From: Lentilactobacillus sp. Marseille-Q4993
Lineage (GTDB): Bacteria; Bacillota; Bacilli; Lactobacillales; Lactobacillaceae
Assembly (NCBI RefSeq): GCF_951230165.1
Contig: NZ_CATNVB010000008.1
Span: 1 to 64,000 of the forward strand
DNA: 64,000 nucleotides
Reading direction: 5' to 3'
This document shows positions 16,908 through 64,000 of the stretch, in pieces. The position numbers were made by a program, and so were the translations under genes. The notes under the pieces were generated by a model. The model had not been told where the DNA came from. It saw only the letters and a program-made list of their open reading frames with translations, and did not search any database. Every line of letters begins with the position of its first letter. Within the stretch, counting starts at the first letter, position 1.

Positions 16908-16919
16908 TGAGGTGTAAAT

Positions 16920-17717
16920 ATTACTCGCTATAAATTAACATTTGCATATGACGGCACTTTGTTTAATGGGTTTCAAAGGCAACCTGGTAAACGGACGGTT
17001 GAAGGGGTTTTAACTGATAAGGTCAATTTGATGGCTAAGAACCCTGAAGAAAAAATTATTGTATATGGATCAGGCCGAACTGATTCGGGTGTTCATGCTT
17101 TAGCTCAGGTTGCTCATTTTGATTTTCCCTTTGAGTTACCCACTAATGCAGTGTATAAAGGATTGAATAGTATGTTGCCTCTTGATATGGAAATCTTAAA
17201 GGCTGAGAAAGTTGCCGATGATTTTCATGCAAGGTACGATGTCTCTGGGAAAAAATATCTGTATCGGCTTAGTTTGGGTGAGTTTGCAGATCCGTTTAAA
17301 CGTAACTATACAGGTCATTGGAAGTACCCCATTGATATTGATAAAGTAAATCGAGCGCTTGCTGATTTGATTGGTGAACATGATTTTTCAAGCTTTGTTG
17401 CTTCCGGTTCTACAGCTCGGTCGAATGTTAGAACGATTTATAATGCTCAGGCAAAATACATTCCTGAAGAGCGGGAAGTCCAAATTGAATTTTATGGTAA
17501 TGGCTTTTTATATAATATGGTTCGGATAATGGTAGGAGTAGTGGTCGAAATTGGTTCATCGTTTCGACCTGAAAACGATATTCCAAGACTGTTTGAGGTA
17601 GGGGATAGGGACCAGGCCAGACGAACAATGCCAGCATCTGGATTATATCTAAAGCATGTCTATTATATTGGTGAAGACAGCGAACACCCAACAAAGTTAC
17701 CAAAATATCAGCGATAA
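16920..17717 (+). CDS. truA: tRNA pseudouridine(38-40) synthase TruA, AUU start
   Basis: TruA isomerises uridines at positions 38-40 of tRNA anticodon arms. Read from ATT at 16920 the protein is 265 aa and begins (M)TRYKLTFAYDGTLFNGFQRQ, the conserved N-terminus; the catalytic Asp is in GSGRTDSGVHALAQV (about residue 55). Between the in-frame stop at 16908 and this motif there is no ATG, GTG or TTG. The next candidate, TTG 16959, lies inside the motif and would delete it. GAGGTG at 16909-16914 is correctly placed for the ATT. An AUU start is therefore the best reading. Confidence 0.9.
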   Translation: MTRYKLTFAYDGTLFNGFQRQPGKRTVEGVLTDKVNLMAKNPEEKIIVYGSGRTDSGVHALAQVAHFDFPFELPTNAVYKGLNSMLPLDMEILKAEKVADDFHARYDVSGKKYLYRLSLGEFADPFKRNYTGHWKYPIDIDKVNRALADLIGEHDFSSFVASGSTARSNVRTIYNAQAKYIPEEREVQIEFYGNGFLYNMVRIMVGVVVEIGSSFRPENDIPRLFEVGDRDQARRTMPASGLYLKHVYYIGEDSEHPTKLPKYQR

Positions 17718-33857: not shown

Positions 33858-35057
33858 ATGACAAAAAAACTTCAAGTGCAAAATCTTACCAAGATATTTG
33901 GAAGACGAATTCCCCGAGCACAAGAATTGCTCAAAGAGGGAAAGAAAAAAGCAGAAATTCTCGAACAAACCGGTGCAACAGTTGGGGTCAGTGACGCTAG
34001 CTTTGATGTCGATGAGGGAGAGATTTTTGTTATTATGGGACTTTCCGGAAGTGGAAAGTCAACCATGATTAGAATGATCAACAGATTGATTGAGCCAACT
34101 TCGGGGTCAATCAAAATTGACGGTCAAGATTTGACACAATTAAGTAAAAAGGAATTATTAGACGTTAGACGGACTAAGATGAGTATGGTTTTCCAGGGAT
34201 TTGCCTTATTCCCAAACAGAAGTATTTTAGACAACACTGCTTATGGCTTGGAAATCAAGGGTGTTGATAGAGATACCCGCCGGAAAAAGGCTCATGATGC
34301 CCTTGAACTAGTTGGTCTTCATGGCTATGATAATCAATTACCCACTCAACTTTCTGGTGGGATGCAACAACGGGTTGGGTTGGCGAGAGCATTAGCTAAC
34401 GATTCTGAAATCCTGTTAATGGACGAAGCTTTCTCAGCTCTTGATCCATTAAACCGAAAAGACATGCAGGATGAACTTCTTGATTTACAGGAAAATCTGC
34501 ATAAAACAATCGTTTTTATTTCTCATGATTTGAACGAAGCCTTACGAATTGGTGACAGAATCATGATTATGAAAGACGGTGAAGTTATTCAGACTGGAAC
34601 GCCAGAAGAAATTTTGACTCAACCAGCTGATGAATACGTTGAACGATTCATTGAGGATGTTGATAGAACTAAGGTCCTTACCGCTGAAAATGTCATGATT
34701 CGACCAAACACTGTCAACATTGAAAAAGATGGTCCGCGGATTGCAATTCGCCGGATGCAGGAAAATGAAATTTCTTCAGTCTATGTTGTTAACAATAAAC
34801 GTGAGTTTGTTGGTTTAGTTGACGCTCGTCACGCCATGGACCTAATTAAAAAAGGTGAAAAGAAGCTGGATTCAATCGTTGAGACTGATATTCCAACTAC
34901 ATCTCCAGACACACCAATTACTGAAATTATGGATCAGATTTCAAGTACACCATTTCCATATGCGGTTGTTGATGATAATAATCATTTACTTGGAATCATT
35001 ATTAGAGGTGCTGTTCTTGGAGCAATTTCAGGAAACGAGGTGACTGTAGATGAATAA
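33858..35057 (+). CDS. gbuA: Glycine betaine ABC transporter ATP-binding protein
   Basis: This 399-aa ATPase powers uptake of glycine betaine or related osmoprotectants (OpuAA/GbuA/ProV type). It has the long N-terminal stretch LTKIFGRRIPRAQELLKEG, Walker A GLSGSGKSTMIRM, signature LSGGMQQRVGLARAL, Walker B ILLMDEAFSALD and two C-terminal CBS domains from about residue 275 that sense ionic strength or c-di-AMP in relatives. AAGGAGG precedes the ATG. It overlaps gbuB by 8 nt. Confidence 0.95.
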   Translation: MTKKLQVQNLTKIFGRRIPRAQELLKEGKKKAEILEQTGATVGVSDASFDVDEGEIFVIMGLSGSGKSTMIRMINRLIEPTSGSIKIDGQDLTQLSKKELLDVRRTKMSMVFQGFALFPNRSILDNTAYGLEIKGVDRDTRRKKAHDALELVGLHGYDNQLPTQLSGGMQQRVGLARALANDSEILLMDEAFSALDPLNRKDMQDELLDLQENLHKTIVFISHDLNEALRIGDRIMIMKDGEVIQTGTPEEILTQPADEYVERFIEDVDRTKVLTAENVMIRPNTVNIEKDGPRIAIRRMQENEISSVYVVNNKREFVGLVDARHAMDLIKKGEKKLDSIVETDIPTTSPDTPITEIMDQISSTPFPYAVVDDNNHLLGIIIRGAVLGAISGNEVTVDE

Positions 35058-35898
35058 CATTCCGCAAATACCAATTTCAAAATGGATTGATAGTTTGGTT
35101 GACTGGCTTGCTAGTTTTGAAGGATTTTTCAACGCCATTACCAACTTTATCGGTGGAATTATCGATGGCTTTCAATGGGTCTTTGACTTAATTCCAGCTT
35201 GGCTGTTCATTATCTTAACGGTCGCCCTAACTTACTGGGTAACCAGAAAAATGAAGCACTGGCCATTGATCACGTTTGAAATTCTGGGCCTGCTTTACGT
35301 GTGGAACCAAGGATTTTGGCGCGATATGACTCAAACCCTAACTTTGGTGTTGACCTCAAGTATTATTGCGTTAGTCGTTGGAGTTCCACTAGGAATTTTG
35401 ATGGCAAAATCTGATATCTTCAGGACTATTAACATGCCAATCCTGGACTTCATGCAGACCATGCCCGCTTTCGTTTATTTAATTCCAGCCGTTGCTTTCT
35501 TCGGTATTGGAATGGTTCCTGGGGTAATCGCCTCAGTTATCTTCGCAATGCCACCAACAGTTCGGATGACAAACTTAGGAATCCGCCAAGTACCAACTGA
35601 TTTGATTGAAGCTGCTGACTCATATGGGTCGACTTCTTGGCAAAAACTGATTAAGGTTCAGTTACCGTTAGCTAAGTCAACCTTGATGGCAGGGGTTAAC
35701 CAAAGCTTGATGCTTTCCCTTTCTATGGTTGTTATTGCGTCAATGATTGGTGCAATGGGATTAGGAAACAAGGTCTACTTTGCTGTTGGTAGAAACGATG
35801 CTGGTGGCGGTTTTGCTGCCGGATTAGCAATCGTTATTTTGGCAATTATCCTTGATCGGGTTACTCAAGCACTGAATAAAGACAAAACAAAGTCGTAA
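35050..35898 (+). CDS. gbuB: Glycine betaine ABC transporter permease
   Basis: This 282-aa membrane protein forms the channel (OpuAB/GbuB/ProW type). It has about seven to eight hydrophobic segments and the permease loop EAADSYGSTSWQKLIKVQLP (EAA motif) that contacts the ATPase. In several lactic acid bacteria the permease is fused to the binding domain; here the binding protein is a separate gene 13 nt downstream, as in Listeria Gbu. Confidence 0.95.
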   Translation: MNNIPQIPISKWIDSLVDWLASFEGFFNAITNFIGGIIDGFQWVFDLIPAWLFIILTVALTYWVTRKMKHWPLITFEILGLLYVWNQGFWRDMTQTLTLVLTSSIIALVVGVPLGILMAKSDIFRTINMPILDFMQTMPAFVYLIPAVAFFGIGMVPGVIASVIFAMPPTVRMTNLGIRQVPTDLIEAADSYGSTSWQKLIKVQLPLAKSTLMAGVNQSLMLSLSMVVIASMIGAMGLGNKVYFAVGRNDAGGGFAAGLAIVILAIILDRVTQALNKDKTKS

Positions 35899-35911
35899 GG
35901 AGGGGATCGTT

Positions 35912-36814
35912 ATTTTAAAGAAGATCGCTAAATTATTGGCATTTGTTGGTGTAATAAGTTTTGTAGTAGTTTTGGCTGGCTGCACTTCTCAAGTTGCTAA
36001 GTACAATCCAAAGGAATCCGTTGGGAAACAAGTAGATTATACGATCACTGGTATTGATGCCGGTGCTGGTGAGATGGCTACTACCCAAAAGGCACTTAAA
36101 GTCTATGGGTTGGAACAGCATAAATGGCAGTTACAGGCCAGTTCAACGGCTGCAATGACCAGTACACTAGACAAGAAGTACAAGAAGAAGCAACCAATCG
36201 TGGTTACTGGCTGGCAACCCCATTGGATGTTCACTAAGTATAAGTTGAAATTCTTAAAGGATCCTAAAAACGTCTATGGTAGTTCAGAAAACATCATGAC
36301 GATTGCTCGTAAGGGACTAAAGAAGGACAAGCCAGAAGCTTACCAAATGCTATCTCGGTTCAAATGGACTCCAAAGCAGATGTCCTCCGTTATGATTAAG
36401 GTTAATAACGGAATGGCTCCTGAAAAGGCAGCTAAACAGTGGATCAAGGCTAATAAGAAGCAAGTTGATAGCTGGACTAAGGGAATCAAGCATGTTAAGA
36501 ATGTACCGTTTAAGATGACTTACGTTGCCTGGGATTCAGAAATTGCTTCTAACAATGTTGTTGCTCAAGTGTTGAAGTCGCTCGGATATAAAGTCACGAT
36601 TCAGGCGATGGAAATGCAACCAATGTGGGCATCAGTTGCAACCAATGCTGCTGACGCTATGGTAAGTGCTTGGCTTCCAAACACGGCCAAAACTTATTAC
36701 GAAGATTATAAGAGCAAAATCGACGTTGTGGGTACCAACCTTAAAGGTGCCAAAGTTGGGCTCGCAGTGCCAACCTATATGACTACGGTTAATTCGATTG
36801 AAGATTTAAAATAG
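35912..36814 (+). CDS. gbuC: Glycine betaine-binding lipoprotein, AUU start
   Basis: This 300-aa lipoprotein captures betaine for the transporter. Read from ATT at 35912 it starts (M)LKKIAKLLAFVGVISFVVV followed by the lipobox LAGC, a normal signal peptide. AGGAGG (35898-35903) is 8 nt before the ATT. The only alternative in frame, TTG 35936, has no ribosome binding site and gives a signal peptide without the positive N-terminus. The binding domain includes tryptophans such as in WQPHWMF and WDSE that would line an aromatic cage. Confidence 0.88.
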   Translation: MLKKIAKLLAFVGVISFVVVLAGCTSQVAKYNPKESVGKQVDYTITGIDAGAGEMATTQKALKVYGLEQHKWQLQASSTAAMTSTLDKKYKKKQPIVVTGWQPHWMFTKYKLKFLKDPKNVYGSSENIMTIARKGLKKDKPEAYQMLSRFKWTPKQMSSVMIKVNNGMAPEKAAKQWIKANKKQVDSWTKGIKHVKNVPFKMTYVAWDSEIASNNVVAQVLKSLGYKVTIQAMEMQPMWASVATNAADAMVSAWLPNTAKTYYEDYKSKIDVVGTNLKGAKVGLAVPTYMTTVNSIEDLK

Positions 36815-62886: not shown

Positions 62887-63309
62887 TTAATTCCCCTTTG
62901 ATTTCTTGAATACAGCCCATTTGGACCAGAAATAATTAATAACGACAATTACCACATTATCAATTAGTTTTACGAGCATTTCGTTCCCAGATAATAATGT
63001 GATTCCTACGTATAGAATAACGTATTCGACACCTAGTGAGCCAATTCTACCTGTAAAAAAGAAGAAAATTTCTTTAATTATGTCTAGCCTGGTGGTGCTT
63101 GCGGAGTGGAAGACGTAGGCTTTATTAGTGATGTAAGCAAATAGAACGCTGACAAACCAAGCGATGGTATTATTTACTAACCACCCGATGCTGGTAAAAT
63201 GATGGATCAACCAAAAAGTCCCCAAATTAACAGCTGTAGTCAATACGCCCCAAAAAAGGTAGGAAATAACTTCCCGGTATCGATCAAATAAATCCGCAAT
63301 TTTTCTCAT
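62887..63309 (-). CDS. GtrA-family membrane protein
   Basis: This 140-aa protein has four hydrophobic helices (YLFWGVLTTAVNLGTFWLIH, NTIAWFVSVLFAYITNKAYV, then two near the C-terminus) and the GtrA signature NKAYVFHS. GtrA proteins are thought to flip lipid-linked sugars used for cell wall glycosylation. It starts 8 nt after the upstream glycosyltransferase gene, which fits this partnership. The ribosome binding site AGGAG is about 17 nt from the ATG, unusually far. Confidence 0.9.
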   Translation of the reverse strand: MRKIADLFDRYREVISYLFWGVLTTAVNLGTFWLIHHFTSIGWLVNNTIAWFVSVLFAYITNKAYVFHSASTTRLDIIKEIFFFFTGRIGSLGVEYVILYVGITLLSGNEMLVKLIDNVVIVVINYFWSKWAVFKKSKGN

Positions 63310-63317
63310 AGCAAATA

Positions 63318-64000
63318 TTATCGCTTCTCCTGAATAATGAATTGTGGTCGGTGTTTCGACTCTAGGTAGATCTTGCCAATATACTTACCGACTATTCCAA
63401 GGCAGAACAGTTGCACCCCACCAAAAAACAGGATAATTGAAACTAGTGAAGCCCAACCGGCTACGGAACCACCGAAGAATAGGGCACGGACGACAACAAA
63501 AATCAAAGCAAGAATCGATAGGAAACACATGAAACTGCCGACAATTGTTGCAAATCTGAGTGGCACATCAGAAAAGTCAACGATTGCCTCCAACGAGTAT
63601 TCAAACAGTTGGAAAATTGACCAAGAGGTTTCGCCAGCTGCTCGGGGAACCCCTTCGTACTCTAAGTACTTAGTGTTGAATCCAACCCAAGAGAAGATTC
63701 CCTTACTGAACCGATTGTACTCATTTAGTTCAAGGACAGCATCAACGTATTTTCTGGTCATTAGCCGGTAATCCCGAACATTTTGCTTAATTTCTACTTT
63801 GGCCATTTTGTTAATTACTTTGTAAAACGATGCTGATAGGAAAGCCCTGATTGGGTTTTGCTTTCGTGATTTTTGCACACAACCGACAACGTCATATTCA
63901 GAATCTTCGCGGTCCAAGATATCGAGCATTTGAATTAGCAACTCTGGTGGATCTTGTAAATCAACGTCCATGACAGCAATGAAGTCACCGCTTGCGTTTG
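63318..64000 (-). CDS. GT2 glycosyltransferase (GtrB/DPM1-like), cut by the window edge
   Basis: The reading frame runs to the right edge, so the N-terminus is missing. What remains begins GDFIAVMDVDLQDPPELLIQ, which includes the DxD metal site region, and ends with two membrane helices (about 63340-63560), the layout of polyprenyl-phosphate sugar transferases such as GtrB/YkoT. KQNVRDYRLMTRKYVDAVLE and FSKGIFSWVGF are typical. With GtrA and the small membrane protein it forms a probable cell-envelope glycosylation unit. Confidence 0.9.
   Translation of the reverse strand, partial: NASGDFIAVMDVDLQDPPELLIQMLDILDREDSEYDVVGCVQKSRKQNPIRAFLSASFYKVINKMAKVEIKQNVRDYRLMTRKYVDAVLELNEYNRFSKGIFSWVGFNTKYLEYEGVPRAAGETSWSIFQLFEYSLEAIVDFSDVPLRFATIVGSFMCFLSILALIFVVVRALFFGGSVAGWASLVSIILFFGGVQLFCLGIVGKYIGKIYLESKHRPQFIIQEKR

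Follow-up and report, generated by a model that had tools for sequence, protein, structure and literature searches.

The gene for a betaine-type substrate-binding lipoprotein (opuAC-type) of Lentilactobacillus sp. Marseille-Q4993 appears to begin at an AUU codon, ATT 35912, and we put the probability of this start at about 0.9. The window, i.e. the whole stretch of DNA that was analysed, is made up of bases 1-64000 of contig C8 of the 2.28-Mb genome, and the gene lies in it within an ABC operon together with an ATPase and a permease (33858-36814). The following elements define the start.

35912..36814, plus strand: lipoprotein gene, opuAC-type, 300 codons plus stop (Pfam OpuAC)
35912..35914, plus strand: ATT (AUU) start codon of this gene, from the sequence, with ATT aligned in the relatives G001 and L. 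kosonis and ATG in the relative G017
35896..35903, plus strand: Shine-Dalgarno sequence (SD) TAAGGAGG, overlapping the permease stop TAA 35896-35898, SD energy -12.2 kcal/mol
35936..35938, plus strand: rival start TTG, judged unused, SD energy -2.2, ACG in G001, L. kosonis and G017
35981..35983, plus strand: lipobox cysteine codon (LAGC; residue 24 with ATT as the first), read by eye

The 300-codon open reading frame in phase with ATT 35912 ends at the stop 36812-36814, and its product has an OpuAC domain (PF04069, 218.4 bits with a cut-off of 21.2, E 1.6e-64); none of the NCBIfam models gave it a score above its own cut-off. AGGAGG at 35898-35903, within TAAGGAGG, leaves a spacer of 8 nt to ATT 35912, and the computed SD:anti-SD energy is -12.2 kcal/mol there compared with -2.2 at TTG 35936. 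All such energies, here and below in kcal/mol, were computed for the upstream bases paired with the anti-SD tail, the rest of the ribosome being ignored. As a chance control, a value of -12.2 or stronger was reached at six of 7,384 internal in-frame ATT, ATC and ATA codons in 365 coding frames of the same genome, and -15 at none of them. There is no ATG, GTG or TTG in the 12 open codons above ATT, and the first standard start of the frame is TTG 35936, eight codons downstream. Read from ATT 35912 the product is (M)LKKIAKLLAFVGVISFVVVLAGC, for which a charged n-region, a hydrophobic core and a lipobox cysteine are predicted by eye; read from TTG 35936 it has lost the lysines. The first-pass annotation had described just this arrangement, namely an AUU start with AGGAGG 8 nt upstream, a normal lipoprotein signal from that codon (LKKIAKLL...LAGC), and a TTG with neither a ribosome-binding site nor a positively charged signal peptide, and codon, spacer, energies and homology all agree with it.

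Orthologues of the gene were found in 21 of the 24 genomes of the genus, and the aligned start codon is ATT in three of them (our own genome, G001 and G023, the last of which is L. kosonis), ATG in 15, including G017, and GTG in three. A start at TTG 35936, which would make the protein eight residues shorter, is a possible choice of any gene caller restricted to ATG, GTG and TTG, being the first standard start of the frame. It has an SD energy of only -2.2, however, its n-region would be without lysine or arginine, whereas at least two of these occur among residues 2-12 in 68 of the 71 countable orthologous start regions, and its place is taken by ACG in G001, L. kosonis and G017, our three nearest relatives, and we consider it very improbable. 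Translation could also begin above ATT, at ATC 35906, at ATA 35876 or, in the relatives, at a GTG inside the SD, and our own frame is indeed open for 12 codons above ATT. But ATC 35906 sits 2 nt behind AGGAGG and scores -4.4, and in both G001 and L. kosonis a TAG five codons above ATT, overlapping the SD, closes the frame and leaves that GTG as the sole standard codon between TAG and ATT, with a score of -1.3 in G001. G017, which is equally close (76% identity), has ATG exactly at the codon of ATT 35912, and the probability of an upstream start is in our view very low.

Loss of the ATG is commonly the first step in gene decay, and the opuAC-type gene might thus have lost its start and be decaying or barely translated. 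We find this hard to believe, as the 300-codon frame is free of stop codons in our own genome, G001 and G023, the latter two at 76-77% identity to our protein, and as their SD is even stronger (-15.0) than our own (-12.2). For an assembly or sequencing error that turned ATG into ATT no support was found, and the same codon stands in the separate genomes of G001 and L. kosonis, for the latter in two copies from two collections. With ATT in these two and ATG at the same codon in G017, a sequencing slip is therefore very unlikely, to the point that we give it next to no probability, and a correction of ATT to ATG, which the first-pass annotation had named as a refutation, is hardly to be expected.

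A different objection concerns the meaning of the codon and not its site, and we give it a little less than an even chance: AUU is the start, but it drifted in, was tolerated given the strong SD and is without regulatory meaning. AUU is not required for an opuAC-type gene, because 15 of the 21 congeners, with G017 among them, have ATG and three have GTG. Against this objection, three species share the ATT, the identity to our own protein being 76-77%, and other genes keep AUU, AUA or AUC (AUH) genus-wide, e.g. a gene for a Cof-type HAD phosphatase (Cof-HAD) in 22 of 23 loci. Four proteins, joined for 27 genomes of which some lack one or other gene, gave a tree with the order (own ATT, (G001 ATT, (G017 ATG, L. 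kosonis ATT))) and 100% ultrafast bootstrap at the two inner nodes; the most economical history for this order is a single gain of ATT with a single reversion to ATG.

The opuAC-type gene does not stand alone in the window. The first-pass annotation had counted a second AUU start in the 64 kb and left the gene unnamed, and by our census it is that of truA, which also appears to begin at AUU.

16920..17717 (frame 16911-17717), plus strand: truA, TruA by NCBIfam TIGR00071, AUU start ATT 16920-16922 with SD GAGGTG

The window was compared with five relatives, 80 kb being taken from each, and 13 of 101 frames had a non-standard codon with the top score, with an SD stronger than -9 in only two of them, truA and opuAC. 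Ten of the frames are weak and antisense over longer frames; one at 62887-63384 is gene-like, with ATA at -7.4, but has ATG in both relatives and was rejected. The best-scoring truA start in 24 congeners is ATT in 18, ATC in two and ATG in four, and 12 of the 20 loci with ATT or ATC have no reachable standard codon with an SD stronger than -6. In 28 truA loci of other genera the best start is ATG (23), TTG (three) or GTG (two).

A wider census covered 459,576 bp of our own genome (449 frames), 480 kb each of G001 and G006, and 400 kb of G071, which belongs to another genus of the family; 80 kb more of our own genome was added later. About a quarter of our own genome is thereby covered, and plausibility was judged by eye. 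Non-standard codons scored best in 15 of 446 scored frames of our own genome, 12 of them with an SD of -7 or stronger, and seven were judged plausible, i.e. opuAC, truA, infC, an M29 peptidase, Cof-HAD, a TagA/WecG-like gene and a GDSL lipase-like gene. G001 gave 12 of 452, eight strong and four plausible (opuAC, truA, infC and M29 peptidase). For G006 the count was nine of 426 with six strong, which are truA, two doubtful cases (79150 ATC and 47695 ATT) and three judged to be internal or to have a competing standard start. All four strong cases among the six of 315 in G071 lie 27-138 codons inside open frames and were judged internal. Flags were dropped for mreB (ATG next to the non-standard codon), for a rarA-like gene (TTG next to it), for a frame at C3 37204, for uvrA in G001, whose G006 orthologue starts at TTG six codons on, and for internal sites at C1 54749, C1 81136, C1 82439, C1 43808, C4 4131, C6 14973 and C8 62781.

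AUU, AUC or AUA is the best start at aligned places in both genomes in four of 302 reciprocal pairs between our own genome and G001, and these are opuAC, truA, the M29 peptidase (ATC) and infC (ATA), with Cof-HAD as a fifth case outside the pair set. The genes concerned, and two candidates that seem confined to our own genome, are placed as follows.

G000:C2, about 98240 (L094), minus strand: infC, apparent AUA start behind GGAGGTGA, by best start score
L159 5968-6792 = G000:C5:25968-26792: Cof-type HAD phosphatase gene, start ATT or ATC across the genus
L142 287-1515 = G000:C8:64286-65515, minus strand: M29-type peptidase gene, ATC start, by best start score
L143 7287-8003, minus strand: TagA/WecG-like gene, own-only candidate, ATC start (C1 8003), by best start score
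L159 15940-16830, minus strand: GDSL lipase-like gene, own-only candidate, ATT start (C5 36830), by best start score

For infC the best score falls on ATA in 23 of 24 loci of the genus, and the 24th is without a candidate. Cof-HAD starts at ATT in 19 and at ATC in three of 23 congeneric loci, our own included. The remaining locus, L258 of L. kosonis (G023), is unreadable: within a run of A near the start its sequence slips by one base, either through a true frameshift or through a mistake in the assembly. Among 15 genomes from other genera the best Cof-HAD start is ATG (nine), TTG (five) or ATC (one); the other 14 other-genus genomes of that search gave no match at 1e-50. The start is fixed by homology: of the 14 genomes of other genera with ATG or TTG, 13 have it precisely at the codon that aligns with the ATT or ATC. 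The M29 peptidase gene is patchy (six of 24 genomes of the genus), with ATC in our own genome and G001 and ATG in three; in G015 CTG scores best and the standard choice is only a poor GTG. The two remaining starts look own-only and are unproven, with ATG best in 23 of 23 congeneric loci of the TagA/WecG-like gene and a standard codon best in 21 of 22 of the GDSL lipase-like gene.

Several points weigh against, or qualify, an AUU start at opuAC or the wider pattern. A standard codon stands at the aligned start in 18 of the 21 congeners that carry the opuAC-type gene, and two in-frame codons of the AUH kind, discussed above, lie upstream of ATT 35912. When all opuAC loci were reduced to 74 distinct start regions (17 duplicates dropped, L078 without a candidate), the best-scoring start was ATG in 38, TTG in 21, GTG in 11 and ATT in four. 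The fourth ATT is an artefact from locus L080, with in-frame stop codons, and L088 is also badly aligned. The tree node that joins our own genome to the other three has no printed support value, and ATT may have been gained three separate times instead of once. Five of the 20 truA loci with ATT or ATC have ATG or TTG one or two codons away, and in three others the SD is weaker and the upstream stop is directly followed by a TTG. Most congeneric Cof-HAD loci have a GTG three codons upstream, which is part of the SD and scores poorly. Finally, the raw non-standard counts differ little across genomes, and the contrast between them comes from judgement and conservation.

The same loci gave two side observations on the records. 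In L080, a Latilactobacillus fuchuensis record, the opuAC frame is broken near its start in the assembly. The opuAC start regions of L075, L076 and L077, filed under three genus names, do not differ from one another, and all three show the same degree of identity to the query, which may be due to misnaming, contamination or transfer.

The suggestion in the first-pass annotation that this organism uses AUU starts more than expected is thus supported by a conserved set in a partial census (the four pairs and Cof-HAD), and not by the raw counts. An excess of AUH starts rests on conservation, because the species are kin and hence not independent and because the raw counts are so alike, and the idea that such starts are unusually common in Lentilactobacillus gains support from these comparisons. 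A further step would be to see infC, truA, Cof-HAD, M29 and opuAC, with their strong SDs, as a genus-wide AUH set of about 1% of the genes compared that forms one group tuned by IF3. The argument for this is that infC itself apparently starts at AUA, and we regard the proposal as rather doubtful.

AUU starts are of a known kind (infC, pcnB and S. aureus cvfC1); opuAC is an added case, and the genus-wide set is the novel part. According to the papers cited here, infC has AUH starts in E. coli, B. subtilis, S. aureus and Streptomyces (PMC1805508, PMC6097659, PMC13009471, PMC5472188), with AUU in E. coli and B. subtilis (PMC1805508, PMC6097659) and AUA in S. aureus (PMC13009471). The opuAC-type gene shares with infC the AUH start, S. 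aureus infC also has an extended SD, and Lentilactobacillus infC apparently has AUA, but infC regulates itself through IF3, whereas the opuAC product is a transport lipoprotein, known here from its sequence. S. aureus cvfC1 (AUU), ccpN and citZ (AUA) likewise have AUH starts, in cvfC1 and ccpN with an extended SD, conserved in relatives (PMC13009471); they are other genes, however, and were mapped by ribosome profiling and reporters, whereas we read opuAC from sequence and homology. In S. aureus, AUU and AUA starts behind extended SDs are reported to yield about 10% of what AUG does, with ccpN reaching as much as 30% when the medium is rich (PMC13009471). E. coli pcnB also has an AUU start, to which a restriction of its expression is attributed (cited in PMC1780047 and PMC13009471), although gene and phylum differ. 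The GTC start of Streptomyces sigR is controlled by IF3 (PMC5472188); it resembles our case in that, within a set of genes, a single product is held back by a non-standard start, and differs in being GTC, not AUH, and in that the control by IF3 has been demonstrated. Non-standard starts are repressed by IF3 (PMC5472188), and re-initiation is reduced by excess IF3, less so with an SD (PMC2268962). By analogy, the S. aureus efficiencies and the effects of IF3 might apply to the opuAC-type gene. Products of E. coli ribE are reported to be made from ATT codons (PMC13245402), and a published reconstruction has one switch to AUU among 61,358 ancestral AUG starts (PMC5622118). In the open-licence literature we met with no description of AUU starts for Lentilactobacillus or for opuAC, for one broad query among ten of 1,791 matches only, none of which names the genus.

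How the start could work is suggested by its place in the operon, the upstream genes of which are listed here with a possible hairpin.

33858..35057, plus strand: ABC ATPase gene with CBS domains, opuAC-type operon (open reading frame; Pfam ABC_tran and CBS)
35050..35898, plus strand: permease gene, opuAC-type operon (open reading frame; Pfam BPD_transp_1)
35902..35929, plus strand: possible RNA hairpin with AUU in a 14-nt loop, from folding of our own sequence and G001

The extended eight-base SD helix (TAAGGAGG) would place the 30S subunit with AUU in the P site, and with the SD overlapping the permease stop codon, ribosomes that end the permease could be recaptured in a coupled manner. The initiator fMet-tRNA would presumably be accepted on AUU despite the mismatch at the third position, which the strong SD would compensate and IF3 would disfavour. 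The protein would begin fMet-LKKIAKLL... and the lipoprotein signal would be cut before Cys24. With so weak a codon, less of the binding protein should be made than with AUG, and the yield could respond to IF3. It is a guess that AUU holds down the binding protein in order to adjust its amount relative to the permease; drift in an AUU-tolerant lineage fits about as well.

The fold of the hairpin is better than most of 200 shuffles in our own sequence (z -2.13, seven of 200 as good) and less so in G001 (z -0.69, 51 of 200), and G017 folds otherwise. By eye, in an alignment of four sequences from a single clade, one pair shared by our own sequence and G001 is preserved by changes in both of its bases, and another is lost. 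Altered decoding machinery was rejected as an explanation: our own IF3 matches the solved IF3 5me0_Y over residues 3-172 of 172 (E 5.4e-76) and is ordinary across the whole length of the match, to which this statement is limited, residue-by-residue fidelity not being analysed. A scan of 20 stretches turned up no tRNA with the anticodon CAT.

Apart from infC and pcnB, genes with AUU starts have seldom been documented. Callers limited to ATG, GTG and TTG can assign an N-terminus wrongly, in this instance to a signal peptide, and ordinary gene prediction may thus misplace the first amino acids of genes that start at AUH. If the pattern is true, a genus with several conserved AUH genes would be a natural system in which to ask whether weak starts are kept for regulation. 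Of the 23 congeneric Cof-HAD loci 22 have AUH, whereas 14 of 15 genomes of other genera have ATG or TTG, a contrast that would make the question directly testable.
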